Part shown: positions 841 through 23,524 of the stretch, one piece after another
Position numbering within the stretch: position 1 is the first letter of the stretch
Layout: every line of letters begins with the position of its first letter
Virus record (IMG/VR): IMGVR_UViG_3300010334_000245
Coordinates: 1-25,420 of that record
Source: a virus
Length of the DNA: 25,420 nt
Direction: 5' to 3' (one strand)
Notes under the pieces: generated by a model
Seen by the model: the letters and a program-made list of their open reading frames with translations, nothing else
What the model was told of the DNA's origin: nothing
The model's database searches: none
Program-made: the position numbers and the translations under genes

Positions 841-1058
841 TTGGGCTCCCATAGTTTACCTTTCATGCCACACTTTGCAAACCAACTTGTTTTTGCTCGT
901 TCTTGTTGTGTATCAGAACCATACTCACGGCTGCCTCTTGATAGTGCCCATGAGTCGTTAGCATTAATAATAGGATTGACACATCTAAGGTACCAGTCGC
1001 GATTGTCTTCCTTGCGAGACCATTTACAATCGCGACATAATGCGGGATAAGGTTTCAT
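837..1058 (-). CDS. Small four-cysteine (zinc-ribbon-like) phage protein
   Basis: A 73-residue protein with Cys8-x2-Cys11, Cys26 and Cys63, a spacing compatible with one structural zinc site. The C-terminus CGMKGKLWEPK matches a recurrent ending of small hypothetical proteins in aquatic T4-like phages (recalled from general knowledge, not searched). It lies between the glycosyltransferase and the epimerase, overlapping the first by one base (TAATG) and the second by ATGA, so all three are probably translated together. There are no membrane segments or signal peptide. The function is unknown; a zinc-stabilised binding module is the most that can be inferred. Confidence 0.8.
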   Translation of the reverse strand: MKPYPALCRDCKWSRKEDNRDWYLRCVNPIINANDSWALSRGSREYGSDTQQERAKTSWFAKCGMKGKLWEPK

Positions 1059-1969
1059 TATCGCTTCCTTGGTACTGGAGTGTCAATAATCTTTGCCTGG
1101 TCAGTACCATAACCATAGACATATTTCATTCCATACTCATTAGGCTCATCTGGAAATTCTGCATCTGGCTTAATGATAAGCTCATTATTTCTAAATGGTC
1201 GCATGTCAACATCGTGATGCCAACGACCATAGCGCTGAACAAGCTTGACACAATCAGGATGGAGATTCACAAGCATCTTTGATTTCTCAAAAGTACCGTC
1301 ACCATAGATTTCAGTGGTGTTTCCGCCTTTGACCGTACCAGTTCTAAGCTTTCCTTGCAAGAATGCATAGAAGAGAAAAGTACAGTAACCTGCCTTGAGA
1401 CAACGAAGTGATAGATCTACGTCCTCGTTATACTTACCTCTCCAGCGGAAAGGCAAATCATTTTTAATGAGAATACAAGACATAAGCCGAGTATTCTGAA
1501 GCACGGGTGGATGATGATAGTTATCAGGACAGAAGAACTTATACTGTGGGCCAGCGAGAGCTACATTCTCAAACCGATCTGTAAAGTCTTCCATAGCTCG
1601 AAAGATTGATCCTGTCTCAACACGGACTCGATCATTGTTGTGAAAGCGCCAGAACTCGGTGATGTTATCGTCGATACACCAGTGCCGTTCATAACCTTGT
1701 GCAATTGACCATTCCCAGATCCAATTTCTAGCAGGTCCAGATCCCTTACCGTGATTGCTGAAAGGTAGTTCTAGTACAGTTCCATATTTTGGATTAATAA
1801 CAGCTCGATAGTTATCAGCTTCTTGTGGCTCTACTGCAATGTAGTAGCGAACACCCATCTTTTCAAAAGCCTTAGCTGTATGACGAGTTTCCCAGCGCCC
1901 CTTACTGATAATAATGAGAGGATATTTTGACTGATATTGTTCGCTTGTCTTGGATGGAAATTTGTTCAT
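1058..1969 (-). CDS. GT-A-like glycosyltransferase resembling TET-associated glycosyltransferases (candidate DNA hypermodification enzyme)
   Basis: The protein has 303 residues from the ATG at 1969, which forms an ATGA overlap with the preceding stop; an in-frame ATG at 1981 would add four residues but has no ribosome binding site. The N-terminal strand YPLIIISKGRWETR (about 16-29) is followed by VEPQEADNYRAV, then HWCIDDNI with Asp100-Asp101 as the likely metal/nucleotide-sugar DXD-type motif. KYNEDVDLS (about 180-188) is a probable second acidic catalytic motif. This pattern resembles phage TET-associated glycosyltransferases, which add sugars to hydroxymethylated bases in other phages. The neighbours are an ITPKTKS-type gene upstream and a sugar epimerase downstream. 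Glycosyltransferase fold: fairly sure. DNA as acceptor: inference, because no TET or hydroxymethyltransferase gene is present in this window. Confidence 0.75.
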   Translation of the reverse strand: MNKFPSKTSEQYQSKYPLIIISKGRWETRHTAKAFEKMGVRYYIAVEPQEADNYRAVINPKYGTVLELPFSNHGKGSGPARNWIWEWSIAQGYERHWCIDDNITEFWRFHNNDRVRVETGSIFRAMEDFTDRFENVALAGPQYKFFCPDNYHHPPVLQNTRLMSCILIKNDLPFRWRGKYNEDVDLSLRCLKAGYCTFLFYAFLQGKLRTGTVKGGNTTEIYGDGTFEKSKMLVNLHPDCVKLVQRYGRWHHDVDMRPFRNNELIIKPDAEFPDEPNEYGMKYVYGYGTDQAKIIDTPVPRKR

Positions 1970-2340
1970 TCTTCGATCCATCGCTTTAGAGAGTTCTCAT
2001 CTCGTTCCTTGATAGGATGCCAGACCGACTTAGTCTTTGGAGTTAATGGCTGATCAATGAGCTTACCAAACTCAAGAAAATCCTCTTCAGATCTGAAGTT
2101 AATGATTAACTGCTTAGAAGCCTCAAGATTTTCAGATTCATACGAAGGCATTCCCTTCCAGAGCTTGCGCCAATTCTGGTAGTTATGTTCCTTCTCGGCT
2201 TCCTCAACTGTGTCTGGCACATCACTGAGTCCAAGAAAGTTAGCCAATGAACCAGGACGTCCTTCAGTTTCCTTCTTACCAATGCATGCATCAAAATCAA
2301 GTGAAGTATCTGGTAATGCATCTTTCTTTGATTTACTCAT
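1966..2340 (-). CDS. Conserved phage protein with ITPKTKS-type motif, first gene of the glycosylation cassette
   Basis: A 124-residue protein starting at an ATG preceded by AAGGAG. The first 70 residues are acidic/polar and include NYQNWRKLWKGMPSY. The last third holds the module LIINFRSEEDFLEFGKLIDQ followed by PLTPKTKSVWHP. A similar module occurs alone or fused to ParB-like or methyltransferase domains in many phage genomes, often beside a glycosyltransferase like the next gene; this is recalled and was not searched. No catalytic residues can be named. It is the first gene after the sigma-70 promoter at 2364-2392 and overlaps the glycosyltransferase start by ATGA. A partner or targeting factor for the transferase is possible but unproven. 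Confidence 0.8.
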   Translation of the reverse strand: MSKSKKDALPDTSLDFDACIGKKETEGRPGSLANFLGLSDVPDTVEEAEKEHNYQNWRKLWKGMPSYESENLEASKQLIINFRSEEDFLEFGKLIDQPLTPKTKSVWHPIKERDENSLKRWIEE

Positions 2341-5627: not shown

Positions 5628-5788
5628 TTGCCATACTTCTTTGTATATGCTGCAAGTGCAGTTTCACAGCCATCTCTTATTTTAGTAAGTGTCTGCATAT
5701 TATTGAACTTCACATTTGGTGGAGTAGCAGGATCCAACATTGAAAAAATTGCCTGCTGAACAATTGGTGGTAATGAATCATAGTTCAT
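5624..5788 (-). CDS. 54-residue conserved small protein between genes 55 and 47
   Basis: Reading from ATG at 5788 to TGA at 5624 gives MNYDSLPPIVQQAIFSML... ending AAYTKKYGK. It is preceded by GGAG nine bases upstream, overlaps the end of gene 55 by 11 bases, and its stop overlaps the start of gene 47 (ATGA). The composition (LPPIVQQAIFS, KFNNMQTLTKIRDGCE) resembles a small conserved protein of aquatic T4-like phages, recalled without a search. Function unknown. The tight coupling on both sides makes it almost certainly translated. Confidence 0.8.
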   Translation of the reverse strand: MNYDSLPPIVQQAIFSMLDPATPPNVKFNNMQTLTKIRDGCETALAAYTKKYGK

Positions 5789-6380
5789 CTTCTAACTCTC
5801 CAATAAACTTTTCAATACCCTTCTTTTTTGTAGATTTAGATTCTTTAAGTTTTTCAAACTTGGCTATCAAATCGTTAGATCTACCATCATCAAGGTGGAC
5901 ATATGCTGCATTAAAGTGAGCTGCATCATCAGATGACATTTCTACAAGAGTATTGTGAATAGACGAATTAATTAAGCTCTTCTGCTTAATGTACTGTTGC
6001 TTTTGTTCACGGGCAATCCGCCGAAGAAAGGCATAGTAAATGATTGTAGTGAAATAGGCAAATGGATTTTTAGACTTATCTGGATCAAAATTGTGCAGAT
6101 ACATCAGACAATTTTCAATGCCATCTGAAATCATTTCATCTTTATACGAATAGCCTGCAAAGTTTGGTTTTGTTGCAAGTCTAGTTGCAATTAGATAGAT
6201 TGTTTTACCAACGTATTCTGAAACTCTAGGTAAAGTAGTTTCTGTTTCCTTTGCCGTATTTAACTTATTTAAATAGACAATCATTTCTGTATATAACTTT
6301 TTGTTATCTACATAGTGAGTTCGTTCTTTGGGTTTCTTGTATGGTTCAGTGCCTGGTGGTAAATTCGTATTTATTGTCAT
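5778..6380 (-). CDS. 55: gp55-like late-transcription sigma factor
   Basis: A phage-encoded sigma that redirects host RNA polymerase to the TATAAATA late promoters seen upstream of the virion genes in this same window. In 200 residues (T4: 185) the sigma region-2-like core runs from about 78 to 132: YKDEMISDGIENCLMYL, then FDPDKSKNPFAYFTTIIYY, then AFLRRIAREQKQQYIKQ. This part binds the polymerase coiled coil and reads the -10. The short acidic/hydrophobic C-terminus (IEKFIGELEDEL) lies where T4 gp55 carries its sliding-clamp-binding tail. The start is within the end of the upstream gene (35-base overlap). Identification is strong; clamp binding is inference. Confidence 0.92.
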   Translation of the reverse strand: MTINTNLPPGTEPYKKPKERTHYVDNKKLYTEMIVYLNKLNTAKETETTLPRVSEYVGKTIYLIATRLATKPNFAGYSYKDEMISDGIENCLMYLHNFDPDKSKNPFAYFTTIIYYAFLRRIAREQKQQYIKQKSLINSSIHNTLVEMSSDDAAHFNAAYVHLDDGRSNDLIAKFEKLKESKSTKKKGIEKFIGELEDEL

Positions 6381-6663: not shown

Positions 6664-8114
6664 AATTCCACCGTAGTTATAGAGTACTCGAACTGTTCAG
6701 CATCATAAATTTTACATCGCTCAATAAAATGTTTCAATGTGTAATTCTGATAGGACTTAACCGATAAGTCGTCTACAATATCATATAATGTAGCATGTTC
6801 TTTAGATTCATGCATACGTAACATACGACCAATTGATTGTAGAACTTTAATCTTTGATTTTGAAGGTGATGCTGCAATCATATGGTGTAGTTTATTTATC
6901 GACACTCCAGTACTGGTAGTTCCTAATGATGCAATCAATGTTGCATTATGTTCATCTTCAATAGCATGACGAATTTGTTCTCTGTCTACTGCTTTAACAC
7001 TACCATCTATGTAGAATACGTTATTATTGGAGTCTGCCTTAATTGCATCGTACAAGGATTTTCCGTGATCCACGATCCGAAAGAATAAGAGTTTGTTGCC
7101 CTTGAGCGATAAGGTGAGCTTTTTAATAAATTTATTTCGCTCTGGGTTGTTAACCAAGAAATCAATTTCTTCGGCGTAAGTTTTTCCTCTGACCGACTTG
7201 CATGTGTCGGTGCTGTATTTGAGAATAATACATTTGATCTTGAGCTTGGAGACATAACCTTGGTCCATAAGCTCTCTTGTAGAAATTGCTCGATAAACTG
7301 GTCCGAATAAGCCTTCAATTGTTGCTTCATTAAGAGGTTGTCCATCAAGCGTTCCCGTCGTACCAAATCTATATCGACAATGTTCAAGACTTGAAAGTAT
7401 TTGAATGAGACTTGTGGCTTTACAGCCGTGCGCTTCATCTCCAAAGACGAGACCAAATTGCTGATACCAAGCTTTGGGCATTTTTGACTTTCCGTTGTTA
7501 AGGGATTGCCATGTAGTAATAACCAAGTCGGCGTCAATGTTGTTAGCTTTACTAAGTCCTCCAATCGAGGTGTGTATCTTCCCTGTATAGCCATAATCTC
7601 TAAAATCACTTTCCATTTGTGTAACAAGTCCAATTGTAGGAACAATAATCAGACCTTTTTGTTTGTACCATTGTGAAATAACATAAATCATCATCGATTT
7701 ACCAGATGAAGTCGGACTGAGAAGTGTTCGCTTACCTGAACGAAGACACTTCAGAATTGATTCTTTCTGATAATCACGCTCTTCATATTTTGCTGGAATG
7801 TTTAATGATTTAATATGAGTTCGAAGTTCATCTTCAGTTATATTCTGATAGATAAGTTCATCATCAAATGAAAATGTATAGCCACGAACATCACAGAACT
7901 TTTTAATACGTGCAGCAAGACCTGAATAAATTACACATGTAAGTGTATTCAGAAGTCTAATTTTACCATCCCATTGCCTAGCTCGGAATTTAGGATGAAA
8001 TTTATAGTTGTTAGCAAAGTAAGTAAAATGCTCAGATAGTTCCATCACAATAGATGGTTCGGCAAGTACTTTTACATAAACAGCATTTATATATTTTAGA
8101 TGAACATCAGTCAT
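6660..8114 (-). CDS. uvsW: UvsW-like superfamily 2 helicase
   Basis: An RNA-DNA/branched-DNA helicase that in T4 unwinds R-loops, reverses stalled forks and helps switch from origin- to recombination-driven replication. The 484 residues show an N-terminal substrate-binding part with RARQWDGKIRLL (44-55), then Walker A SPTSSGKS (133-140), the DEAH box in GDEAHG (225-230), motif III GTTGTLDG (251-258), and motif VI QSIGRMLRM (426-434). The start ATG shares a base with the uvsY stop and has a GGGGA ribosome site inside uvsY. The uvsY-uvsW pairing supports joint action in recombination repair. All helicase motifs are intact. Confidence 0.95.
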   Translation of the reverse strand: MTDVHLKYINAVYVKVLAEPSIVMELSEHFTYFANNYKFHPKFRARQWDGKIRLLNTLTCVIYSGLAARIKKFCDVRGYTFSFDDELIYQNITEDELRTHIKSLNIPAKYEERDYQKESILKCLRSGKRTLLSPTSSGKSMMIYVISQWYKQKGLIIVPTIGLVTQMESDFRDYGYTGKIHTSIGGLSKANNIDADLVITTWQSLNNGKSKMPKAWYQQFGLVFGDEAHGCKATSLIQILSSLEHCRYRFGTTGTLDGQPLNEATIEGLFGPVYRAISTRELMDQGYVSKLKIKCIILKYSTDTCKSVRGKTYAEEIDFLVNNPERNKFIKKLTLSLKGNKLLFFRIVDHGKSLYDAIKADSNNNVFYIDGSVKAVDREQIRHAIEDEHNATLIASLGTTSTGVSINKLHHMIAASPSKSKIKVLQSIGRMLRMHESKEHATLYDIVDDLSVKSYQNYTLKHFIERCKIYDAEQFEYSITTVEL

Positions 8115-8548
8115 TAAATCCCCAGTTGAAATTTCTCAAAGGCTATAGCATTAGTAATGATGAAATTTCGATTGGCAATTGATTTAATAATAGATTCTAA
8201 CAGACCAGTCTTTTCGATTTGCAGACCAATCTTTAGAGTAAGATCTATAATATCTTTATCAGTTTCAACGTAACCATTTGCATCCGCCTTGAGTATCTTT
8301 CCTCTTGGCGGAAGTCTCCATCCTAATGCATGAGTCTCTTCGGTTGGTCCTTCGGTATAGAAATCAAACTTGTCCTTCTTGAGGAGCTTAAGTTGAGTTT
8401 CATATTTGCGGAGAGTAAGCCTCTCATTAATATATATACGATAGTATTTGTGGTGTAACTGTGGGATCTTGATTGCTTCATTTGTAAGATCGGTTTTGTC
8501 AATTTTACAGTCTACTTCCCATAAGACAAAAATTTCATCAAGTTTCAC
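8114..8548 (-). CDS. uvsY: UvsY-like recombination mediator
   Basis: The 144-residue protein matches T4 UvsY (137) in length and layout: a basic, helical N-terminal half (YYRIYINERLTLRKYETQ, then LKLLKKDKFDFYTEG) for single-stranded-DNA binding, and a C-terminal helical half (DIIDLTLKIGLQ, ESIIKSIANRNFIITNAI, AFEKF) like the hexamer-forming region. UvsY loads the UvsX recombinase on gp32-coated DNA. The start is GTG at 8548, directly after the deformylase stop, with GGAG eight bases upstream. It is followed immediately by uvsW. Sequence divergence keeps certainty below that of the helicase, but the gene order is diagnostic. Confidence 0.88.
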   Translation of the reverse strand: MKLDEIFVLWEVDCKIDKTDLTNEAIKIPQLHHKYYRIYINERLTLRKYETQLKLLKKDKFDFYTEGPTEETHALGWRLPPRGKILKADANGYVETDKDIIDLTLKIGLQIEKTGLLESIIKSIANRNFIITNAIAFEKFQLGI

Positions 8549-9085
8549 TTAGATAACTCCACTCAGATATGCAGTTACCATATCATTTTTAGACTTAAAT
8601 GGTTTACCAGACTTTAGTCGATTCCGTGCTTGTTCTAAGTGAATCTTGCTTGCCCTCTTTGTAAAGTTAATACCTTGAAGATGATCATATTCATGTTGAA
8701 AGATTCTAGAAGTCAGTCCATCCAAGGTTTTAGTCACGACATTACCATTTGGTTCTGTATAGCGGACTTTAATAGTCTTTGAGCGCTTTACTTTTACTAT
8801 GAGACTAGGATATGATAAACAACCTTCATCTAAATAGATCTTGTCGGCGCTTTCATCTACAATAAATGGATTGAAGCACACAATAACAGGATTTGCTTTG
8901 ATTGCAAAAACTCGGTATGGAAGACCAAGTTGATTAGCAGAAAGCCCCATACCATTATGTTTTAACATTGCTCCCGCAAGTTCATATGCTAATTGAATTG
9001 GATCCACTGGTGGAATAGAAAAATCAAACTTTAGTACAGGTACTTTTAACACTTCTGCATTGCAATCAATTAGTTCATAGTTCAT
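8549..9085 (-). CDS. def: Peptide deformylase
   Basis: Removes the N-formyl group from nascent proteins. All three family motifs are present: GMGLSANQ (45-52, motif 1), EGCLSYP with metal ligand Cys89 (motif 2), and QHEYDHLQG with His131, Glu132 and His135 (motif 3). The 178 residues include a C-terminal extension of about 40 residues past motif 3, longer than the trimmed deformylases known from some marine phages. The gene sits between the ATPase gene (ATGA overlap) and uvsY, with AAGGA upstream. Phage deformylases are a recurrent auxiliary gene of aquatic T4-like phages and are thought to sustain fast processing of host or phage proteins during infection. Confidence 0.95.
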   Translation of the reverse strand: MNYELIDCNAEVLKVPVLKFDFSIPPVDPIQLAYELAGAMLKHNGMGLSANQLGLPYRVFAIKANPVIVCFNPFIVDESADKIYLDEGCLSYPSLIVKVKRSKTIKVRYTEPNGNVVTKTLDGLTSRIFQHEYDHLQGINFTKRASKIHLEQARNRLKSGKPFKSKNDMVTAYLSGVI

Positions 9086-9600
9086 AGCTGTTCCTTAATA
9101 ATGTCAAAGATCACATATTTAGCATCTTGATTTGCTGGAACTTCGATAAAGGGAATTTCAAATTCAAGCATGAGATCTTTAATTTTGGAATCTAATTGTC
9201 TAGCTTGATCTTCAGTCTGACTACGACCTACTTTATGATATGGCTTCTCTCGTTTTAGAAAGATATTGATATTATCATAATGATTAAAAAGTTCAAGGCC
9301 AAGCTTTTTAAAATATCCAGGAAGATAATCTGGTTGAGCGTAAACAAGAGACATAGCTAAAGGACTGTCTGTAATAACACAATCAACTTGTCCTTTAAGT
9401 CTCCAGAGCTTGTGATTCTGTTTAGCCATAATGTAGAGTTGATCTTCAAGAATCTTAAATCGTTCATCCCAGGTTACTTCCTTGGCATATTCATTTACCA
9501 ATTCTACGTTTATATTTAACCACTTCATATGAGCAAACAAATCAGATGCAGTAGTACTCTTTCCTGATCCTGGTCCCGACCATAAGTTAACAATTTTCAA
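9082..9600 (-). CDS. P-loop ATPase/kinase of the AAA_28 (NadR-kinase-like) type
   Basis: A 172-residue protein with Walker A GPGSGKST (9-16) near the N-terminus, VNEYAKEVTWDER (about 35-47), DCVITDSPLAMSL as a probable Walker-B-like strand (73-85), and KREKPYHKVGRSQTEDQAR (117-135), an arginine-containing lid. This resembles the small nucleoside/ribosylnicotinamide-kinase-like P-loop proteins often called AAA_28 in phages; the substrate is not known. The start is TTG at 9600. No ATG exists in frame before an upstream stop, and GGAG lies eight bases ahead, so this unusual start is well supported. It is the first gene after the promoter at 9639-9666 and overlaps the deformylase start (ATGA). 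Confidence 0.85.
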   Translation of the reverse strand: MKIVNLWSGPGSGKSTTASDLFAHMKWLNINVELVNEYAKEVTWDERFKILEDQLYIMAKQNHKLWRLKGQVDCVITDSPLAMSLVYAQPDYLPGYFKKLGLELFNHYDNINIFLKREKPYHKVGRSQTEDQARQLDSKIKDLMLEFEIPFIEVPANQDAKYVIFDIIKEQL

Positions 9601-9638
9601 TACACATACTCCATATTATATTACATTGGTATAACGCT

Positions 9639-9666
9639 CTTATATACACATTCTATAAAATGTCAA
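9639..9666 (-). promoter_or_regulatory. Sigma-70 promoter for the ATPase-def-uvsY-uvsW-55-47-46 operon
   Basis: The minus strand has a perfect -35 TTGACA (9666-9661) and -10 TATAAG (9644-9639), spaced by 16 bases, about 39 bases ahead of the TTG start at 9600. The -35 overlaps the last codons of the upstream tail gene. From here to gene 46 the genes overlap or nearly abut, so one early transcript probably covers them all, including the late sigma gene 55. Confidence 0.8.
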
Positions 9667-10133
9667 CTACTCATTGCATCAAAATAAAATCTATTAAATT
9701 GAAGTGACACTGTTGCTGTTGCATATTGAATTTCTGATAAAGTACTATCAAAGTTTAAATCAGAAAGAGAAATTGGGAATAGATCTGTAAATCTCACATC
9801 CATAATAGGTTTCAATGCACTATTTAAAATTAAAACACTACCATCAAGTTTTCGTTCTTGATATTGTTCAAATCTATCTGGATAACTTAGTTGAACCATC
9901 CAATTAAAGATTTCCATATAATCTTTAAGATTTTCACCAACCATAAAAGACAATTGCAAATTGGTATATTCAAGATTACCAGGATTGCTTAATCTCACAA
10001 ACGGAGTAGGAATCATTGCTTGACCTAATGTCAGTCCAGGAATAATTACAGATTGAGCTCTCAACTCAAGATTATTTAAAGTTGGTATCTTCAATTTAAA
10101 ATTAAGTTGCGATAAATTATTTTGATCGTACAT
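9663..10133 (-). CDS. Tail tube-fold (gp19-like) structural protein
   Basis: A 156-residue protein, start ATG at 10133 with AGGAA upstream. The stretches LRAQSVIIPGLTLGQ, NPGNLEYTNLQLSFMVGE, DYMEIFNWMVQL and ATATVSLQFNRFYFD give the beta-rich pattern of the tail tube / baseplate-tube fold. In this fold a PG-containing loop follows a first strand, and a helix of the E-I-x-x-W type packs on the sheet. Gene 19 proper is found elsewhere in this window, so this is a paralogue, perhaps a baseplate tube or tail-terminator component. It has its own late promoter (10185-10192), consistent with a virion role. Exact T4 equivalent unresolved. Confidence 0.72.
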   Translation of the reverse strand: MYDQNNLSQLNFKLKIPTLNNLELRAQSVIIPGLTLGQAMIPTPFVRLSNPGNLEYTNLQLSFMVGENLKDYMEIFNWMVQLSYPDRFEQYQERKLDGSVLILNSALKPIMDVRFTDLFPISLSDLNFDSTLSEIQYATATVSLQFNRFYFDAMSS

Positions 10134-10144
10134 GCGGTTTCCTA

Positions 10145-10172
10145 TTTACATATTTTAGAAAATGATTATAGT
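10145..10172 (+). promoter_or_regulatory. Possible plus-strand sigma-70 promoter
   Basis: TTTACA (10145-10150) and TATAGT (10167-10172) are spaced by 16 bases, each one mismatch from consensus. They point rightward toward the 37-codon ORF at 10205 and away from all other genes in the window. In such AT-rich DNA a chance match is possible. Confidence 0.4.
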
Positions 10173-10184
10173 AACAATATGAGG

Positions 10185-10192
10185 TATTTATA
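10185..10192 (-). promoter_or_regulatory. T4-type late promoter (TATAAATA)
   Basis: Exact TATAAATA on the minus strand, 52 bases ahead of the start of the tube-fold tail gene. This is the gp55-dependent late -10 element. Confidence 0.8.
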
Positions 10193-10204
10193 AGGAAAAA
10201 TTAG

Positions 10205-10318
10205 ATGAAACTAGAACCTGAGAATACAATTTTGGATTCTGAATTGGCACAGAGAGATGTAAAAAGAACCCACAGATCAATGAAGCCATTAGATCCAAAA
10301 TTTCCCCTTTATCACTAA
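10205..10318 (+). CDS. 37-residue ORF on the opposite strand, between gene 23 and the tail gene
   Basis: ATG at 10205 to TAA at 10318 reads MKLEPENTILDSELAQ..., ending MKPLDPKFPLYH. An AAGGA ribosome-like site lies eight bases upstream, and a promoter-like pair sits at 10145-10172. It would be the only plus-strand gene of the window. The peptide is hydrophilic and has no membrane segment or recognised motif. It lies in a 250-base gap where no minus-strand gene exists, and its stop falls against the base of the gene 23 terminator. It could be a real small gene or chance; I lean slightly to real because start signal, frame and terminator fit together. Confidence 0.45.
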   Translation: MKLEPENTILDSELAQRDVKRTHRSMKPLDPKFPLYH

Positions 10319-10347
10319 AAAGGAGGGGAACCTTTCGATTCCCCTCC
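10317..10347 (-). terminator. Intrinsic terminator after gene 23
   Basis: A nine-base-pair stem GGAGGGGAA (10322-10330) / TTCCCCTCC (10339-10347) with an eight-base loop. On the minus strand it is followed by TTTTT (10321-10317), the classical Rho-independent form. It lies 37 bases beyond the stop of the major capsid gene. On the plus strand the stem is not followed by a T run, so termination of the opposing ORF here would be weaker. Confidence 0.9.
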
Positions 10348-10383
10348 AGTATGCATTTAAGTTTCTGGTTATTAAACCAAATC

Positions 10384-11757
10384 TTACATGAGATTTGAAA
10401 TAATAATACGGCGGTAATAGTTGTTGGAATCTTGTGTAAGAGTACCTTGACCAGCAGTAAGACCTTCAGCGAATGGGTTTGCTACCATACCGTAACGAGT
10501 CTTGAAGCCGATTTTTGGCTGGAAGGTATTAGGATCAACCGCACGAACCATCTGAAGTGGAACGTATGGGCAGTAGAAAATACCTGCATCAAATGCACTT
10601 GAACCCTTGTAACCGACAACCATGTAGTTTGAACCAGCATATGGATCAATGTACACGCGGAGACGGCCGTTAAGAACACCAGCAAAAGTATTGCCTGTGT
10701 CATCAACCTGTAGGTTGTTGCTGTTTAGAGCAGGAGCGTAGTCAAGAACGCCAGCCATCTGAAGGGCAGAAGCAACATCTGATGAACAGATGATTACGTT
10801 ACCCTTACCACGTCTGGTGCCCTTAGCGATAGCATTTGCTTCACGCTCTACTTGGAACATAAGACCCTTGAACTTCTCAACAGACCAACGACCATTTGAG
10901 TCAGTGTCAAGATCAAAGATACCAGCAGTTGTTGTACCGGATTCTGCACCTTGCTTAGCAGTAATAACGATTGAACGAATAACTTCACGGTTGATTTCAG
11001 CAAGAATTTCCGCAGAAAGAATATTGCTTAGTTCTGTTTCAGCATCAAGACCGTGGATTGCCTTTAGATCCTGAGCAAGTTCAAGTGAGTATTCAGCCTT
11101 TAGAGCACGTGTCTTAGCAGAAACTGTAACTTTCTCGATTGAGAATGCCATTTCTGGGAATACTGATGGGGTGTTGCCTAGACCTTCAGCGAATGAAGTG
11201 TTAAGACCAGCAGCAAAGTTGTATGCACTGTTACCAGCATTGTTTGAAGCAGCTGGGTAAGTACCTACGTTTGTATTTGCACCACCAAGGGCAGTTGCAG
11301 AAGCAGCAGCAGTATCTGTATACTGACCGTTTGCACCACCGCGAGCGGACTGACCGGTATTAACTTCGTTGTAGAAAGTTTCAGAACCAGTCTGGTTAGC
11401 ATAACGTGCACGCATAGCAAAGATAAGTCCTGTTGGACCTGTCATTGGCTGGACGCCGCAAACATCATATGCAATAAGGTTAGGCATTGCACGACGAACT
11501 AGTGAGATAAGTACTGGATCAAAGGTATCAATTGCACCGGCGTTTGTTGAATCTGGGTTACCAATTGAGTTGGTTGGACCAGCTTCACCAAGGAAACCAC
11601 CTGACATTGCTGCACGTGCTTCACGAACTGCATTCTCAGTATTCTCAAGAATCTGTGCAGTAACTGCGCGCTTGTGAGCATCTTTAATTGATGGAAGATC
11701 GTCGTGCTCGAGGATTGGCTTCCACTTATTTTGAATTTCTTCATTTAAATATGACAT
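10384..11757 (-). CDS. 23: gp23-like major capsid protein precursor
   Basis: A 457-residue HK97-fold capsid subunit precursor (T4: 521). The helical N-terminal delta region (1-58) ends in FLGEAGPTN. Leu56-x-Glu58 before Ala59 matches the L/I-x-E cleavage rule of the gp21 prohead protease, so the mature subunit should start at Ala59. Later stretches typical of gp23 are FDPVLISLVRRAMPNLIAYD, AEYSLELAQDLKAIHGLDAE and the C-terminal YRRIIISNLM. A Gly/Ala/Asn-rich segment (about 138-183) probably forms a surface insertion. GGAGAAG precedes the ATG, a late promoter lies 45 bases upstream, and a strong terminator follows: the signals of a highly expressed single gene. Confidence 0.97.
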   Translation of the reverse strand: MSYLNEEIQNKWKPILEHDDLPSIKDAHKRAVTAQILENTENAVREARAAMSGGFLGEAGPTNSIGNPDSTNAGAIDTFDPVLISLVRRAMPNLIAYDVCGVQPMTGPTGLIFAMRARYANQTGSETFYNEVNTGQSARGGANGQYTDTAAASATALGGANTNVGTYPAASNNAGNSAYNFAAGLNTSFAEGLGNTPSVFPEMAFSIEKVTVSAKTRALKAEYSLELAQDLKAIHGLDAETELSNILSAEILAEINREVIRSIVITAKQGAESGTTTAGIFDLDTDSNGRWSVEKFKGLMFQVEREANAIAKGTRRGKGNVIICSSDVASALQMAGVLDYAPALNSNNLQVDDTGNTFAGVLNGRLRVYIDPYAGSNYMVVGYKGSSAFDAGIFYCPYVPLQMVRAVDPNTFQPKIGFKTRYGMVANPFAEGLTAGQGTLTQDSNNYYRRIIISNLM

Positions 11758-18237: not shown

Positions 18238-20358
18238 TTAAGCGCCAGCGATCTCTGAGAACTCTACACCACTACGGACAGCAACAAAGTTAAGCTGAAT
18301 GTAGTTAATTGATCTTGCAGGTTTGATATAAATATCGCCAACAAATCTATTACCATCAATAACTTCAGAGGTATTATTTGTTTCATCACAAATAACCTTA
18401 AAGTCATAAATGCCGCGGCGTCCTTGTACATCACGTAGATATGGTTCTATTAAATTACGAAACTGCGACCGAGTAAATTCATCATTGAATTCAAATAGAA
18501 GTGATTTAGAAGCATTTGAAATTGCCTTTTCGAGCACAATGAATAGACGACGAACGTTTATGCGATCAAACGCAGATGGTTTATTCAAGAATGTCTTGTC
18601 ACCATAAAGTGTTGGTCCTTGACCAGAGATATTAACTACTGGATTAATGCTATTCTTATATAGTTGATCTCGTTGAGCCTGATTTGGATTAAATGCAAGC
18701 TTGATTACATTTTTAATGCTACCGCGTGTTGTACCAGCAGGTGAAAACCATGGATCACGAGTCTTATCTGTTCTTGCACAAACACCCGCAATATCACCGT
18801 TAAGTGGAATGTAACGATAAATATCATTGTACTTATCATACATATACTTGTAACCAGAGTCAACAACTGCATATGAAGAAGATCTAAGATTACTTCTAAA
18901 ACCAAGGATACTTTCTACTGGTTGTGTGTTATTAACCACACTTGACTTAGGTGGTGACACAAAAACTACGCAGTCTCTGCGTGTTTCAGCTAAATTGTCA
19001 ATTAGATAGTTACCTGATTGTGCACCACTAAATCCTCGTGATAATCCGGTCATAATTAGCGAAACATCAACATCATCTGAAGATACAAATAGATCATATG
19101 CTTTTGCAATATCAGCAAAAGAAACACCAGTTGATGGATCTTCTGTCTCATTCTTGTCAATACCACCAGTAAATGATAGAGTAAGTGGAATTTGATTAAT
19201 AGAACTTACAATATTTACAGCAGTGTTAGATACTGAACCTACACGATCTGTGCCAAACCATACATAATTTGATTCATTATTGATTACATCTTTATAATAG
19301 TTGGTTGTACCATCAGAAAGCTTGGAATCACTAGCTCTTGAAAGTCCTTTATAGACTTCAAGAATAGCACCTGGACTACTAGTAAAACCACCTTCTTCGT
19401 CTACAATTACTATATGAAGTTCATCATTCTGTGCAGCAGTATTACCTAGCTGAGCAACTGTATTACCGTTTACAGAAACATAAGTAGAACGACCAGGTGC
19501 AACATCTACCTGATTGTAATATTCCCAGTAACGATTTACAGTTGATGTATTAATGTCAGTTGATAGTTTAAGTGGTTGATCAAACGTTAGAGTAAATGAT
19601 GCAGTATTTCCTGTTGTTAAGTTAGCAGACAATGAAGTAGCACTCTTTGAAATAATCTTTAAGTATTGTGTGCCAAATGTTGCAGCATTACCGACCTGAA
19701 TATAATCACCAACTGTAATAAGATTTAAAATAGCATCAGATGATGTTTGATTTGCAGAACCATTTGCAGTAAAGAGTGTAATACTTGCTGTTGTTGAACC
19801 TACTGCAAGTGTCATAGATGTATTTGAATTATTACAATTATATGCTGTAGATTTTAGATCAATTGTTGAATTATACTGAGTGGCACTACCGCAGACTGAT
19901 ACTTTAAGAGAGTTACCAAGTTCACCTGGGTAGCGAGCTATATAAGTAGCTCCTGATGAAGTAAAGTTGTTAGACTTAATTAGATAATCATCAGAGTTCA
20001 GAATTGTATATGAAGAGCTAGCATTAATTGATGCAGTATTGCTTGTTGCAACAGCAGAAAACTGATTAGCATTTAGAGCACGGCTTACATATAGTGCATT
20101 TGAATATGAAAGAAAGCTTGCGGCAACAAACCAAGTTTCAGCATTGATATTAGTTGGTTTGCCAAATTTATTAGCTAGATCATTTTCTGATGTAACTAAA
20201 ATTCTTTGCCCAACAGGTCCCCAGCGAAATACACCTGCAATTGCACCCGCAGAAGTATCTACTGAAGGGACTACAGTAGTAAGATCAATCTCAGAAACAT
20301 TAATACCTGGGCTAAGCTGGAATCCGCCACCACCCGATCCAAAATTTTGTACGGCCAT
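18238..20358 (-). CDS. 18: gp18-like contractile tail sheath protein
   Basis: A 706-residue sheath subunit (T4: 659). The N-terminus LSPGINVSEIDLTTVVPSVD and GAIAGVFRWGPVGQ is the conserved sheath start. The middle (about 110-400) is a Ser/Thr-rich variable domain exposed on the outside. The C-terminal core has FNPNQAQRDQLYKNSINPVV, INVRRLFIVLEKAISNASKS, FEFNDEFTRSQFRNLIEPYL and FVGDIYIKPARSINYIQLNF, which give the strands that link neighbouring subunits. TAAGGAG precedes the ATG, and a late promoter lies 47 bases upstream. It is intact and without inserts. Confidence 0.97.
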   Translation of the reverse strand: MAVQNFGSGGGGFQLSPGINVSEIDLTTVVPSVDTSAGAIAGVFRWGPVGQRILVTSENDLANKFGKPTNINAETWFVAASFLSYSNALYVSRALNANQFSAVATSNTASINASSSYTILNSDDYLIKSNNFTSSGATYIARYPGELGNSLKVSVCGSATQYNSTIDLKSTAYNCNNSNTSMTLAVGSTTASITLFTANGSANQTSSDAILNLITVGDYIQVGNAATFGTQYLKIISKSATSLSANLTTGNTASFTLTFDQPLKLSTDINTSTVNRYWEYYNQVDVAPGRSTYVSVNGNTVAQLGNTAAQNDELHIVIVDEEGGFTSSPGAILEVYKGLSRASDSKLSDGTTNYYKDVINNESNYVWFGTDRVGSVSNTAVNIVSSINQIPLTLSFTGGIDKNETEDPSTGVSFADIAKAYDLFVSSDDVDVSLIMTGLSRGFSGAQSGNYLIDNLAETRRDCVVFVSPPKSSVVNNTQPVESILGFRSNLRSSSYAVVDSGYKYMYDKYNDIYRYIPLNGDIAGVCARTDKTRDPWFSPAGTTRGSIKNVIKLAFNPNQAQRDQLYKNSINPVVNISGQGPTLYGDKTFLNKPSAFDRINVRRLFIVLEKAISNASKSLLFEFNDEFTRSQFRNLIEPYLRDVQGRRGIYDFKVICDETNNTSEVIDGNRFVGDIYIKPARSINYIQLNFVAVRSGVEFSEIAGA

Positions 20359-20422: not shown

Positions 20423-22177
20423 TCAGAAGAACATGAATTCGGGATTTGGATTAGCTACTAAATCTATAATTTCATCTTCGGGTTGACCATCGTCCATAAA
20501 CCCTGAAGGGAGAAGATCACGTTCTAATTCTTCATCTGTTCGATCTCTAAGTTGCATAAGAGTATTAATATCAGTTAAATCTTTAAAATATTGCTGATCA
20601 GACATCCACCCAAATAGAACAATGCCCATCACTAAATCATCATGACAACCTGGTTCTGCTTCATACGAAGTTCCTTTCTTTGAGAATCTTGACAACTCAA
20701 AGATGGTATCGTGATCATTAATAATCAATTGTCTTTGCTCAATGAGAAGTTTTAACATCGAGCAACCAATTGCCTTCACTGTCTTTGTAGTTCTAACTCC
20801 TCTATCGCTTGAAGCTGTCTTTGAAAAGCCTGCAGAGATTCGTTTGCCTCTTGCACCAGCATTTTCAGTCTGAATAACAGTCTCACACTCGTAATCAAAA
20901 TAGAGAGCATCTGCAACTTGACCACCAGTATCGTTGATTTCAACAAGAACAGAAGCCATATTATAAAGCTTTGAGATCTGAAAAATAGTTCCGGCATAGT
21001 CTAGAGGGGTTACCATATTGTTTTTATAGGTACAGACCTGATTGTAAGGCATTTTAGTAATGTCGATGACGTGAAAAGCCGAGTAATCTAGACCTTTACC
21101 ACGAGACACATCGCAGACAATTACATACTGATGATTTGTAAGTTTTTCTTCATAGACTTTAAGTCCATCTCTAGAAGCTAATGGTGTTTTTGATACTAGT
21201 GATTTAAGAACAGCACCAGAAATAAGTGTACCAGATGATCCTAAGAACTGACATTCAAATTCTTGTGCAAACTTTTCAACATCGAAGTCCATTGAAGATA
21301 GAGTCTCATGTCTCCATTTCTCACCTCGACCCGGAACTTTTTGCCAAGGAACTTCTACATATTCATAACCGTTCCATTCGGTACTATCATGAGAGGCAAT
21401 AGCGCCAATACAAGTTTTATAGAAGTGATTTAATCCATTTGGCGTAGAAGTAAATAGAATTTTTGTAGTTTCACCCGATGAAATGGTTGGAAAAACAGAA
21501 GCAAAGAATTTATCCCAGTTTTCTACGAAAGCAGTTTCGTCAATATATAGAAGTGAGATTGACTTACCACGAATAGCCGATGATGATGTAGCAGCAGCAA
21601 TAATCTTACAGCCATTTTCAAGTTCGATTGATCCTTTATTCCATGAAACTACGCCCTGCTGAAGCCAAGATGGAAGACCTTCATATGAGATTTTAATACG
21701 ATCTAGAATTTCTCTAGCGGCATCACCTTTATTTGCAAGTAGTGCTACAGTTTTATGACTATTAAAGATGATATAATGAAGAATAACAGCAGCCGCGGTA
21801 GTGGTATTATGACTTAAAATTCCATTTGTGTAATATCTATGATTATAAGAGTTAACGGTTAAATCAAACATATTACTGAATACTTCAGTCTTAGTAATAG
21901 ACTTTACAAGATCAGGACCAAACTTTGTAATAACTTTAGTTTTATTAGGAATACAATTTTTTAGAAAAATTTCATTAAACTGCTCATCAAATAGTATATG
22001 ATCATCTGCAGCTATTAGATTAAACCCAGATTCTGTTTCTATAATCCATTCTTGGTATTCTATTGTTTTGTGAATAGATTCAATATCTTCCCAGCCGGTA
22101 TCCGTTTCGATTTCCCAATCCGAAATATCAAAAGATTCAAGAAATTTTCTTTCTATTGTTTCAGAAAGTTTATGCAT
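20423..22177 (-). CDS. 17: Large terminase C-half fused behind a C-intein (gp17, fractured gene)
   Basis: The 584-residue product begins with about 124 residues of intein: TESGFNLIAADDHILF carries the block B histidine (His60). DLTVNSYNHRYYTNGILSHN (105-124) holds blocks F and G, ending in the catalytic His123-Asn124. Then follows TTTAAAVILHY, the continuation of a Walker A motif. The rest is a normal large terminase: Walker B LLYIDETAF (Asp213, Glu214), coupling motif TSTPNG, and nuclease residues Asp356 (VCDVSRG), Glu413 (LVEINDTG) and Asp513/Asp514 (CHDDLVM). On its own it lacks the ATP-binding GK and should be inactive until spliced in trans with the N-half. Its ATG lies inside the end of the endonuclease gene, with GAGGA about 12 bases ahead. 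Confidence 0.93.
   Translation of the reverse strand: MHKLSETIERKFLESFDISDWEIETDTGWEDIESIHKTIEYQEWIIETESGFNLIAADDHILFDEQFNEIFLKNCIPNKTKVITKFGPDLVKSITKTEVFSNMFDLTVNSYNHRYYTNGILSHNTTTAAAVILHYIIFNSHKTVALLANKGDAAREILDRIKISYEGLPSWLQQGVVSWNKGSIELENGCKIIAAATSSSAIRGKSISLLYIDETAFVENWDKFFASVFPTISSGETTKILFTSTPNGLNHFYKTCIGAIASHDSTEWNGYEYVEVPWQKVPGRGEKWRHETLSSMDFDVEKFAQEFECQFLGSSGTLISGAVLKSLVSKTPLASRDGLKVYEEKLTNHQYVIVCDVSRGKGLDYSAFHVIDITKMPYNQVCTYKNNMVTPLDYAGTIFQISKLYNMASVLVEINDTGGQVADALYFDYECETVIQTENAGARGKRISAGFSKTASSDRGVRTTKTVKAIGCSMLKLLIEQRQLIINDHDTIFELSRFSKKGTSYEAEPGCHDDLVMGIVLFGWMSDQQYFKDLTDINTLMQLRDRTDEELERDLLPSGFMDDGQPEDEIIDLVANPNPEFMFF
21806..22177 (-). other. C-intein (IntC) coding segment
   Basis: Codons 1-124 of the C-half. 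The block B-like LIAADDH, block F DLTVNSYNHRYY and block G TNGILSHN are present, with Thr as the +1 splice residue. No endonuclease domain is inside the intein. Confidence 0.9.
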
Positions 22178-23175
22178 TTTAGTATTGTTTCCTCAGGAAT
22201 TTTATCTAATTCACTTTCCCATATAATAAGAACTTCATAGCCTCTAGATCTTGCAACATTTATTTTACTTTCGTCAAGTTCCCATTGCAGTTTTGCGGTT
22301 CTTTTCGTTCTTTTGTTTATATCAGTTTCATTATATAGTTTCGGATTCATATGCCAAAAATCACCATTGTATTCAATTATTTTATTTTCATATCTTAAAT
22401 CATAATTTAATCTTCTTTTTTCATTTTTTAACGTAAATTGTCTTTCTATATCTGGAAATTCTTTTACTAATGAATTAAACACAAAAGTTTCACCTTTAGA
22501 ACAATTAAACCCTTTTGATATCTTTTTTCGGTTTATTTCGCTTAACTCGTGTTCAGATTTAGAGTTTAATGTGTTTTGCCATCTTATTTGTCTATCATTA
22601 AATATTTCTATTCCTTTTTCTTTTCCGTGCCTTTTAACGCATTTCTTTAATGTGAAAGTTTGTTGTCGTTTCCTTAATTCTTTCTTTGCTTCTTCTAATG
22701 AGAATCCTTTTTTGAGATAGTAAGCTAATGTTGTATTTGATGCTCCATTTCTCTGTTCAATAGAATTTTTATTTCTTGCTTTTGTTTTGGATTCTTCTGA
22801 GAATTTAGGGTTTTTCTTCGAATATATTGAATATTTTCCTTGGTGGTTAAACCAGACATTATTTTCACCTGTTACTCTGGCGGACTTTTGTTTCATTTTT
22901 TCTTTTGCGAGATTCTCATCATTATAAATGAGTGTATACCATTCCAAACAATCTCGTCTAGATTCAGTATATGAATTAATTCGATTAATCCACTTTATAC
23001 GTTCCTGCCAAGATAGATTAGAATCTAATATTCTTTTAAAATTGTCTGTTCTACCAATGACCTTACTAATTCCAAGTTTTTGCATAGCAATAATAGTTCT
23101 TACATCAGTAAGAGAATTAATATCAGATCTTTTAGATATTCGCATTCTGATCACGCTTTTTTGCTTCAAGTTCAT
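22153..23175 (-). CDS. Free-standing Vsr/EDxHD-like homing endonuclease between the terminase halves
   Basis: 340 residues from the ATG at 23175, which has GGAG six bases upstream; an in-frame TTG at 23187 is less likely. The C-terminal nuclease part has Glu229 (SKGET), FPDIERQFTLK, Asp259 in RRLNYDLRYENK, then IIEYNGDFWHMNP with Glu268, Asp272 and His275. This order fits the EDxHD family related to Vsr mismatch nucleases, known from fractured split-intein genes and phage introns. The middle has basic DNA-binding stretches (SEESKTKARNKNS, GIEIFNDRQIRWQNTL). It overlaps the N-half by 44 bases and the C-half by 25. It would cut intein-less gene 17 and so spread the split. AT-rich codon use supports foreign origin. 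The family call rests on motifs only. Confidence 0.82.
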   Translation of the reverse strand: MNLKQKSVIRMRISKRSDINSLTDVRTIIAMQKLGISKVIGRTDNFKRILDSNLSWQERIKWINRINSYTESRRDCLEWYTLIYNDENLAKEKMKQKSARVTGENNVWFNHQGKYSIYSKKNPKFSEESKTKARNKNSIEQRNGASNTTLAYYLKKGFSLEEAKKELRKRQQTFTLKKCVKRHGKEKGIEIFNDRQIRWQNTLNSKSEHELSEINRKKISKGFNCSKGETFVFNSLVKEFPDIERQFTLKNEKRRLNYDLRYENKIIEYNGDFWHMNPKLYNETDINKRTKRTAKLQWELDESKINVARSRGYEVLIIWESELDKIPEETILKCINFLKQ

Positions 23176-23524
23176 ATAAATCTCCAATAGTCATTTCGAG
23201 TATTTCACCGGTCTTTTTATTTTTTAATTTGACTATTGTATTTATACTAACGCATTTTCCAGCCTGTCTACTTGTACAAACTGCTACTCGTCTATTATTG
23301 GTAATTTTATGAATAATTTCTTTCTGATATTCATAGAGCTTAATTGGAATAAGACCATGATCAACATGCACAATTTGAATATATTGTTCGGCAAAATAGA
23401 TAGGATCTTCAGCACACTTTAAATACTCTTGAACCATATCTGGAGTCCAAGAAATTGCCTTTCTTGACTTCTTTAAAAGTGGATTACCATTATAACCTTT
23501 GTCAATTGTAAAATCTGGATTCAT
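23132..23524 (-). CDS. 17: Large terminase N-half ending in an N-intein (gp17, fractured gene)
   Basis: The 130-residue product's first 90 residues are the start of a large terminase: ISWTPDMVQEYLKCAEDPIY, FAEQYIQIVHVDHG, LYEYQKEIIHKI, and the first half of Walker A in CTSRQAGK. The chain then switches to an intein start, CVSINTIVKLKNKKTGEIL (91-109), with nucleophile Cys91 in block A, and stops after 40 intein residues (GDLYELEAKKRDQNANI). The reading frame does not continue into the terminase, and the C-half lies about 950 bases away beyond another gene, so this is not a frameshift. The ATG overlaps the stop of gene 16 (ATGA), the normal place of gene 17. Confidence 0.93.
   Translation of the reverse strand: MNPDFTIDKGYNGNPLLKKSRKAISWTPDMVQEYLKCAEDPIYFAEQYIQIVHVDHGLIPIKLYEYQKEIIHKITNNRRVAVCTSRQAGKCVSINTIVKLKNKKTGEILEMTIGDLYELEAKKRDQNANI
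23135..23254 (-). other. N-intein (IntN) coding segment
   Basis: Codons 91-130 of the N-half. Cys1 follows the Lys of SRQAGK. Block A reads CVSINTIV, with Asn where many inteins have Asp. It ends before block B, so the split falls unusually early. Confidence 0.88.
23239..23246 (-). promoter_or_regulatory. Exact late-promoter element inside the N-intein coding region
   Basis: TATAAATA on the minus strand, made by the codons for intein residues Ser-Ile-Asn-Thr. It lies 64 bases ahead of the endonuclease ATG at 23175, a spacing similar to the other three exact late elements. It could drive the endonuclease and the terminase C-half, but being inside coding sequence it may be fortuitous. Confidence 0.5.

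Follow-up and report, generated by a model that had tools for sequence, protein, structure and literature searches.

A conserved early-type promoter faces the late genes at the junction of gene 23 and the gene-3-like tail completion gene of a T4-like phage, and the gap downstream of it is probably a slot for early genes on the opposite strand, which here would hold the gene of a small early protein. In seven relatives the promoter and the borders of the slot are kept, similar promoters stand before prereplicative genes, and in one relative the slot contains an opposing operon. The window, i.e. the whole stretch of DNA analysed, is an entire virus record of 25,420 bases. All of its identified genes lie on the minus strand; besides those listed here, they include the scaffold, terminase pieces, SbcC/SbcD-like (gp46/47-like) nuclease subunits, a UvsY-like protein and the tail sheath stabilizer.

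5778-6380, minus strand: gp55-like late sigma factor, the expected reader of the late promoters (phrog_234)
9663-10133, minus strand: gene-3-like tail completion protein, tail tube family (phrog_45)
10145-10150, plus strand: -35 element TTTACA of the opposing early-type promoter, kept in 7/7 relatives
10167-10172, plus strand: -10 element TATAGT, predicted start near 10179; TATAAT in 7/7 relatives
10185-10192, minus strand: late promoter TATAAATA of the gene-3-like gene, found in 7/7 relatives; predicted late start near 10179
10192-10196, plus strand: Shine-Dalgarno-like AAGGA, 8 nt before the ATG at 10205
10205-10318, plus strand: 37-codon ORF MKLEPENTILDSELAQRDVKRTHRSMKPLDPKFPLYH (37 aa plus stop, ATG at 10205), probable small early gene
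10322-10347, minus strand: intrinsic terminator of gene 23 with an 11-bp stem, right-hand border of the slot
10384-11757, minus strand: gene 23, major capsid protein (phrog_138)

The original prediction had singled out 10134-10383 as the only sizeable gap of the virion block, and by the ORF list it is the largest one there; a larger gap (2341-2636) sits outside the block. The anatomy was also borne out as described: a promoter-like pair TTTACA-16-TATAGT on the plus strand, followed by a ribosome site, the 37-codon ORF and the terminator stem.

The opposing promoter and its relatives

With a -35 element of the TTTAC/TTGAC type and a TATAAT-like -10 (TATAGT in the window) at a spacing of 16 nt, the site has the form of T4-type early or prereplicative promoters, in which the two elements lie 16-17 nt apart. 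Taken alone, the hexamers hardly exceed chance, if at all. Sigma-70-like pairs occurred 8 times in 9000-11500, against 8.9 +/- 3.0 in shuffles, and TTTACA-16-TATAAT with at most two mismatches occurred 15 times in the window against a mean of 9.6, a count reached in 4 of 100 shuffles. An extended pattern built from the relatives and the window matched the window once where 0.07 matches were expected, a flattering figure because the window itself helped to build the pattern. A stricter consensus, picked after the sites had been seen, gave its top score of 14 once in the window and in none of 20 Markov resamples. Support for the promoter beyond chance is mainly comparative.

Scanning viral contigs with the gene-3 protein yielded two loci, then seven that included these two, and then the same seven (L002, L003, L006, L007, L008, L009 and L010), whose gene-3 proteins are 72-80% identical to that of the window, L010 covering the first 81 residues only; the same scan of genome contigs gave no loci. 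All seven carry the promoter opposite the gene-3 start, each with a perfect TATAAT, in the plus-strand pattern TTTACAT-N10-RTG-NN-TATAATGAC followed by NNTATGGTCAATGGAATAT. Over the promoter stretch L008 equals L009 and L010 equals L006, leaving five distinct sequences. From the -10 onward, distinct relatives share 26-29 of 30 bases, as against 30-53% of the fourfold sites in gene 3 and 72-86% of those in gene 23; the contrast is strong relative to gene 3 and modest relative to gene 23. The near-twins L007 and L009 agree at 30/30 bases and at 100% of the gene-3 fourfold sites. Identity in the spacer amounts to 8-10 of 15 bases in eight of ten pairs (14 in L003-L006, 13 in L007-L009); the spacer is thus less conserved than the -10 and leader, which fits the expectation for a promoter. 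The window is the outlier of the group: it has the poorest -10, has lost the conserved leader and matches at only 16 of 30 bases over the -10/leader stretch, which may reflect decay. Taken together, the head block of this T4-like clade carries an early-type promoter on the opposing strand that seems to be under selection even as what lies behind it varies.

When viral contigs were scanned with the promoter pattern, 20 stretches were returned, seven of them the gene-3 site and three a site directly before the DNA primase gene of the records G001, G002 and G003 (phrog_47; 1.5e-73 in G001, 7.1e-78 in G003). By eye, the other ten shared no flanks with the gene-3 or primase sites and were set aside. 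Between the primase-promoter block of G003 and L007, 39 of 45 bases agree, or 22 of 23 when counted from the -10 onward; the site is identical in G001 and G002 and looser there (28/45 against L007 in G001, without gaps). The presence of a close copy of the slot promoter before a primase gene argues that it is a prereplicative promoter. Consensus sites scoring at least 13 numbered 19 in G001, 4 in G003 and 4 in the window, whereas 20 Markov resamples averaged 2.1, 0.35 and 0.25. Six sites across these three records reached the top score, the window site among them, and four of the other five lie just before a same-strand gene, namely primase (two contigs), ligase and replicative helicase; the fifth lies inside a gene. 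The promoter family thus precedes prereplicative genes, with the caveat that 10 of the 19 sites in G001 lie within 150 nt before a called same-strand gene, seven being inside genes without such a downstream gene and two neither. The remaining window sites scoring at least 13 lie before a kinase gene (9666, minus strand), before a 124-aa gene (2392, minus strand) and inside a gene. For plain TTTACA/TATAAT pairs there is no enrichment, either in G001 (24, against 15-31 in five shuffles) or in the window (6, against 4-7).

G001 is itself T4-like, with polymerase, helicase and baseplate genes. None of 27 window proteins matched G001, G002 or G003; applied to the seven relatives, the same search recovers 14 of these proteins. 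G001 may represent the complementary part of such a genome. The sample number in the names of G002 and L006 is identical.

By eye, a palindrome TGAC-N6-GTCA is centred near the predicted start in the sites of L002, L003, L006, L007 and G003. This operator-like element is common to the slot and primase promoters and is lost in the window. An iterative promoter search drifted to another strong early promoter type, TTGACAT-17-TAGACT, and was not used for scoring the window site. It revealed 28 strong promoter-like TTGACAT-17-TRGACT sites with a leader like AAACTATAAGGAATGGAG (score at least 18; 26 in G001, 2 in G003), whereas five Markov resamples gave none, the matrix having been trained on these same matches. 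They mostly precede small genes (G001 at 50-141 kb, L037-L042, and G003) and amount to a very uniform putative early promoter plus leader. Extended-leader scans added only two further loci, one inside a long ORF (L053) and one judged on sequence alone (L052); neither was retained.

Slot contents and the 37-codon reading frame

The cargo of the slot varies, from a three-gene operon through a single tiny ORF and a late-strand gene to almost nothing. In L007, a three-gene plus-strand operon lies between the promoter and the gene-23 terminator and encodes a 72-aa protein (no family), a 5'(3')-deoxyribonucleotidase (phrog_2643, 1.6e-23) and a 51-aa protein (no family); L008 and L009 share this stretch until the nucleotidase gene begins. 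A 448-aa late-strand gene fills the slot of L006 and L010, its Pfam matches (helix-turn-helix, Mom; run on L006) lying below the curated cut-offs, and L002 and L003 have almost no slot. No plus-strand ORF starting after the promoter within the gap reaches 30 aa in L002 and L003 or 40 aa in L006 and L010. Since the promoter is kept in these four loci, its maintenance does not depend on an ORF, and a promoter kept without a sizeable ORF could have a regulatory role. Slots of this kind are places where new small early genes can arise.

In the window, the ribosome site and ORF fall between the same slot borders as in the relatives. AAGGA follows directly on the complement of the late promoter, at a position where L007-L009 have GAGGA and L002 and L003 have GAGCA, and the stop of the ORF overlaps a conserved A-run before the terminator stem. 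An ATG-initiated ORF of at least 37 codons arose in 9.4% of 5000 Markov-resampled gaps, and in 2.1% together with a Shine-Dalgarno-like site. By codon score the ORF ranks first among the six frames. Its score was matched or beaten by 4.8% of 188 spurious stop-free windows (3.7% when the codon table came from small genes of G001) and is higher than that of 24% of 190 real-gene windows, which came from the same phage genes as the main codon table. The frame has the start, ribosome site and gene-like codons of a small gene.

Homologs were not found by tblastn against phages (E up to 10) or in PHROGs, Pfam, PADLOC and NCBIfam, pattern scans of viral contigs gave no counterpart, and tblastn against 61 loci gave a best E of 0.12 apart from the window itself. 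Conservation of frame and start, named as a check by the original prediction, was absent in all seven relatives (best tblastn E 0.15, outside the slot), alongside the conserved promoter and slot borders of the same seven loci. Several apparent similarities were rejected: a weak 29-base DNA match to a Lactococcus phage; the peptide DPKFPLYH, shared with L004 and L005 in an unrelated setting; a match of L054 to the terminator stretch only, in a locus that gave no match to window proteins; similarity to the opposing genes of L007, with scores no better than shuffles; and a resemblance between L007 and the window immediately ahead of the terminator, judged too short.

The ORF RNA folds better than its shuffles (z -2.9, 0/200 for the ORF alone; z -2.6, 2/200 from the start to before the terminator), aided by a perfect 10-bp inverted repeat within the ORF (10228-10237 / 10293-10302). 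This excess could hint at an RNA and is read here as unexplained; Rfam gave no window matches at gathering scores. On balance, the 37 codons probably encode a protein. Of the two products envisaged originally, a small early protein is the preferred one, given a promoter like those of primase, ligase and helicase and the coding operon of L007, with the unconserved frame and start counting against it.

Overlap of early and late transcription

The late promoter TATAAATA also occurs before gene 23 (11809-11802) and before the gene at 18238-20358 (20412-20405). Exact copies in the window number 5 against 3.2 expected, so the argument rests on their placement and not on their number. At the other end of the slot, the T-run (a U-run in RNA) is present on the minus strand only, and the hairpin therefore reads as the gene-23 terminator; a like stem with a T-run follows gene 23 in L002, L003, L006 and L007. 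As the plus strand lacks a U-run, early RNA may continue past the hairpin, antisense to gene 23.

The early start was taken 7 nt after the -10. Late starts were placed by the T4 rule, with the late promoter at -13 to -6 (PMC1524935, in the part consulted). Both predicted starts fall on 10179. Close to its 5' end the predicted early transcript runs through the gene-3 late promoter, which it crosses in 8/8 loci. From these starts, the two RNAs would have 1 nt in common in the window and 8-21 nt in the relatives. The claim that the unit crosses the late promoter and leader in antisense consequently stands for the late promoter and for the promoter DNA, which is opposite the leader; it was not confirmed for the RNAs, whose predicted overlap in the window is about 1 nt. 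With the predicted starts, the early RNA shows no substantial complementarity to the leader of the gene-3 mRNA, and the proposal of an antisense RNA that silences the leader of the tail gene is not supported. Each polymerase must first cross the promoter of the other, which makes mutual exclusion at the DNA level plausible and leader antisense not.

We infer the following order of events for an early-gene slot. Before replication, a host-type RNA polymerase would start at the plus-strand promoter (10145-10172), near 10179, and read rightwards into whatever gene occupies the space from the gene-3 late promoter to the gene-23 terminator. In the window, this cargo would be the 37-codon ORF, which has a ribosome site of its own and most likely encodes a small early protein that evolves fast. 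Later, polymerase bearing gp55 would start from TATAAATA at almost the same base and read leftwards through the early promoter, and early and late use of the junction would exclude each other. Such a tight overlap of predicted early and late starts is a simple layout for an early/late switch.

The lost leader and weak -10 of the window would also be explained by a relic promoter, left after the loss of an ancestral opposing early operon like that of L007, with the ORF as a chance frame in leftover or inserted DNA. The lack of a homolog in our searches fits such an origin, as do the rates at which resampled gaps produce a frame of this length, with or without a ribosome site. We nevertheless consider a relic unlikely, since the -10 and leader are identical at 28-29 of 30 bases in L002, L003 and L006 despite 43-53% identity at gene-3 fourfold sites (by the gene-23 yardstick, at 79-86%, this argument is weaker), and since the codon score of the ORF is gene-like. 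The conserved block might instead be an element of the gene-3 late mRNA leader, such as a hairpin or ribosome site, that looks like a promoter by accident. TTTACA adjoins the gene-3 ribosome site, and a 7-bp hairpin is possible in the leaders of L003 and L006; however, a close copy precedes primase genes in records without a gene-3 match, and 5/5 leaders fold no better than shuffles (z -0.39 to 0.27), which renders this explanation very improbable.

Conservation of the promoter in L002, L003, L006 and L010 without a sizeable plus-strand ORF after it would suit non-coding regulation, in which early firing represses gene 3 or the capsid operon and the ORFs are passengers. Repression could act through polymerase occupancy over the late promoter, which the predicted early RNA crosses in every locus, or through RNA antisense to gene 23, into which that RNA may continue. 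T4 gene 3 depends on gp55 and replication anyway. Early repression therefore seems superfluous; moreover, the overlap with the gene-3 leader RNA is just 1-21 nt and the L007 promoter leads coding genes, and we regard this reading as quite unlikely. Similarly doubtful is a dedicated early-to-late switch, built on a prereplicative promoter with the operator-like TGAC-N6-GTCA box of the primase promoter. If it existed, firing would cross the gene-3 late promoter and proceed in antisense towards the capsid gene, the promoter would be kept for that act regardless of the gene in the slot, and the late start at nearly the same base would shut the early promoter off.

Comparison with other phages and further observations

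An early-gene slot at this junction is a sensible variation on the arrangement of T4-type phages. In T4, too, genes on the opposite strand occur downstream of gene 23 within the late head block: segD faces genes 23 and 24, and the late genes ahead of uvsW are opposed by rnlB-24.2-24.3-hoc-inh. Opposing transcription over a T4 gene, as predicted for the slot, has a counterpart in gene 32, for which sense and antisense transcription was reportedly described by Belin et al. in 1987. In the part of PMC2988022 consulted, the fact that segD is oriented against genes 23 and 24 is described as noteworthy, and searches are said to have failed to find a segD-specific promoter. Unlike segD as reported there, the junction studied here has a conserved promoter, and its gene content differs.

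According to the consulted part of PMC1524935, T4-type early promoters of the GTTTAC / TATAAT class have TTTAC or TTGAC at -35 and TATAAT at -10 and often precede novel ORFs, and a terminator follows gene 23 in six T4-like genomes. The window site is like these promoters in its hexamers but lies within a late block, facing a late promoter. The text of that source, its logos aside, does not mention the leader TGAC-N6-GTCA seen in the relatives of the site and in the primase promoter, as far as it was consulted. In the literature searched, partly in excerpt, we found no report of such an opposing early-promoter layout, which is a weak negative. For the marine methylophage Melnitz, 31 early and 15 late promoters were predicted (PMC9004378, in the part consulted). 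As annotated examples and not a survey, the Melnitz genes from capsid to UvsY lie on one strand, Stenotrophomonas phage DLP_6 has a late-strand exonuclease gene between the capsid and tube genes, and in Synechococcus phage S-CREM1 an 81-nt gap separates the two.

Elsewhere in the window, 1058-1981 (minus strand) matches beta-glucosyl-HMC-alpha-glucosyltransferase (phrog_842, 6e-49), and modification of DNA bases is possible on the strength of this match. In L002, a UvsW-like helicase (7020-8957) is, by eye, seemingly broken by intein-like sequence, after which another ORF follows. The large terminase of the window (20423-23524, minus strand) likewise seems split, into an N-terminal ORF (23132-23524) and a C-terminal ORF (20423-22177). 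Both match terminase families, and intein-like sequence is present at the break. Between the two parts lies an ORF (22153-23187) with a match to phrog_22677, of unknown function, and a weak match to DUF559; by eye, the arrangement suggests a split intein accompanied by a free-standing endonuclease.
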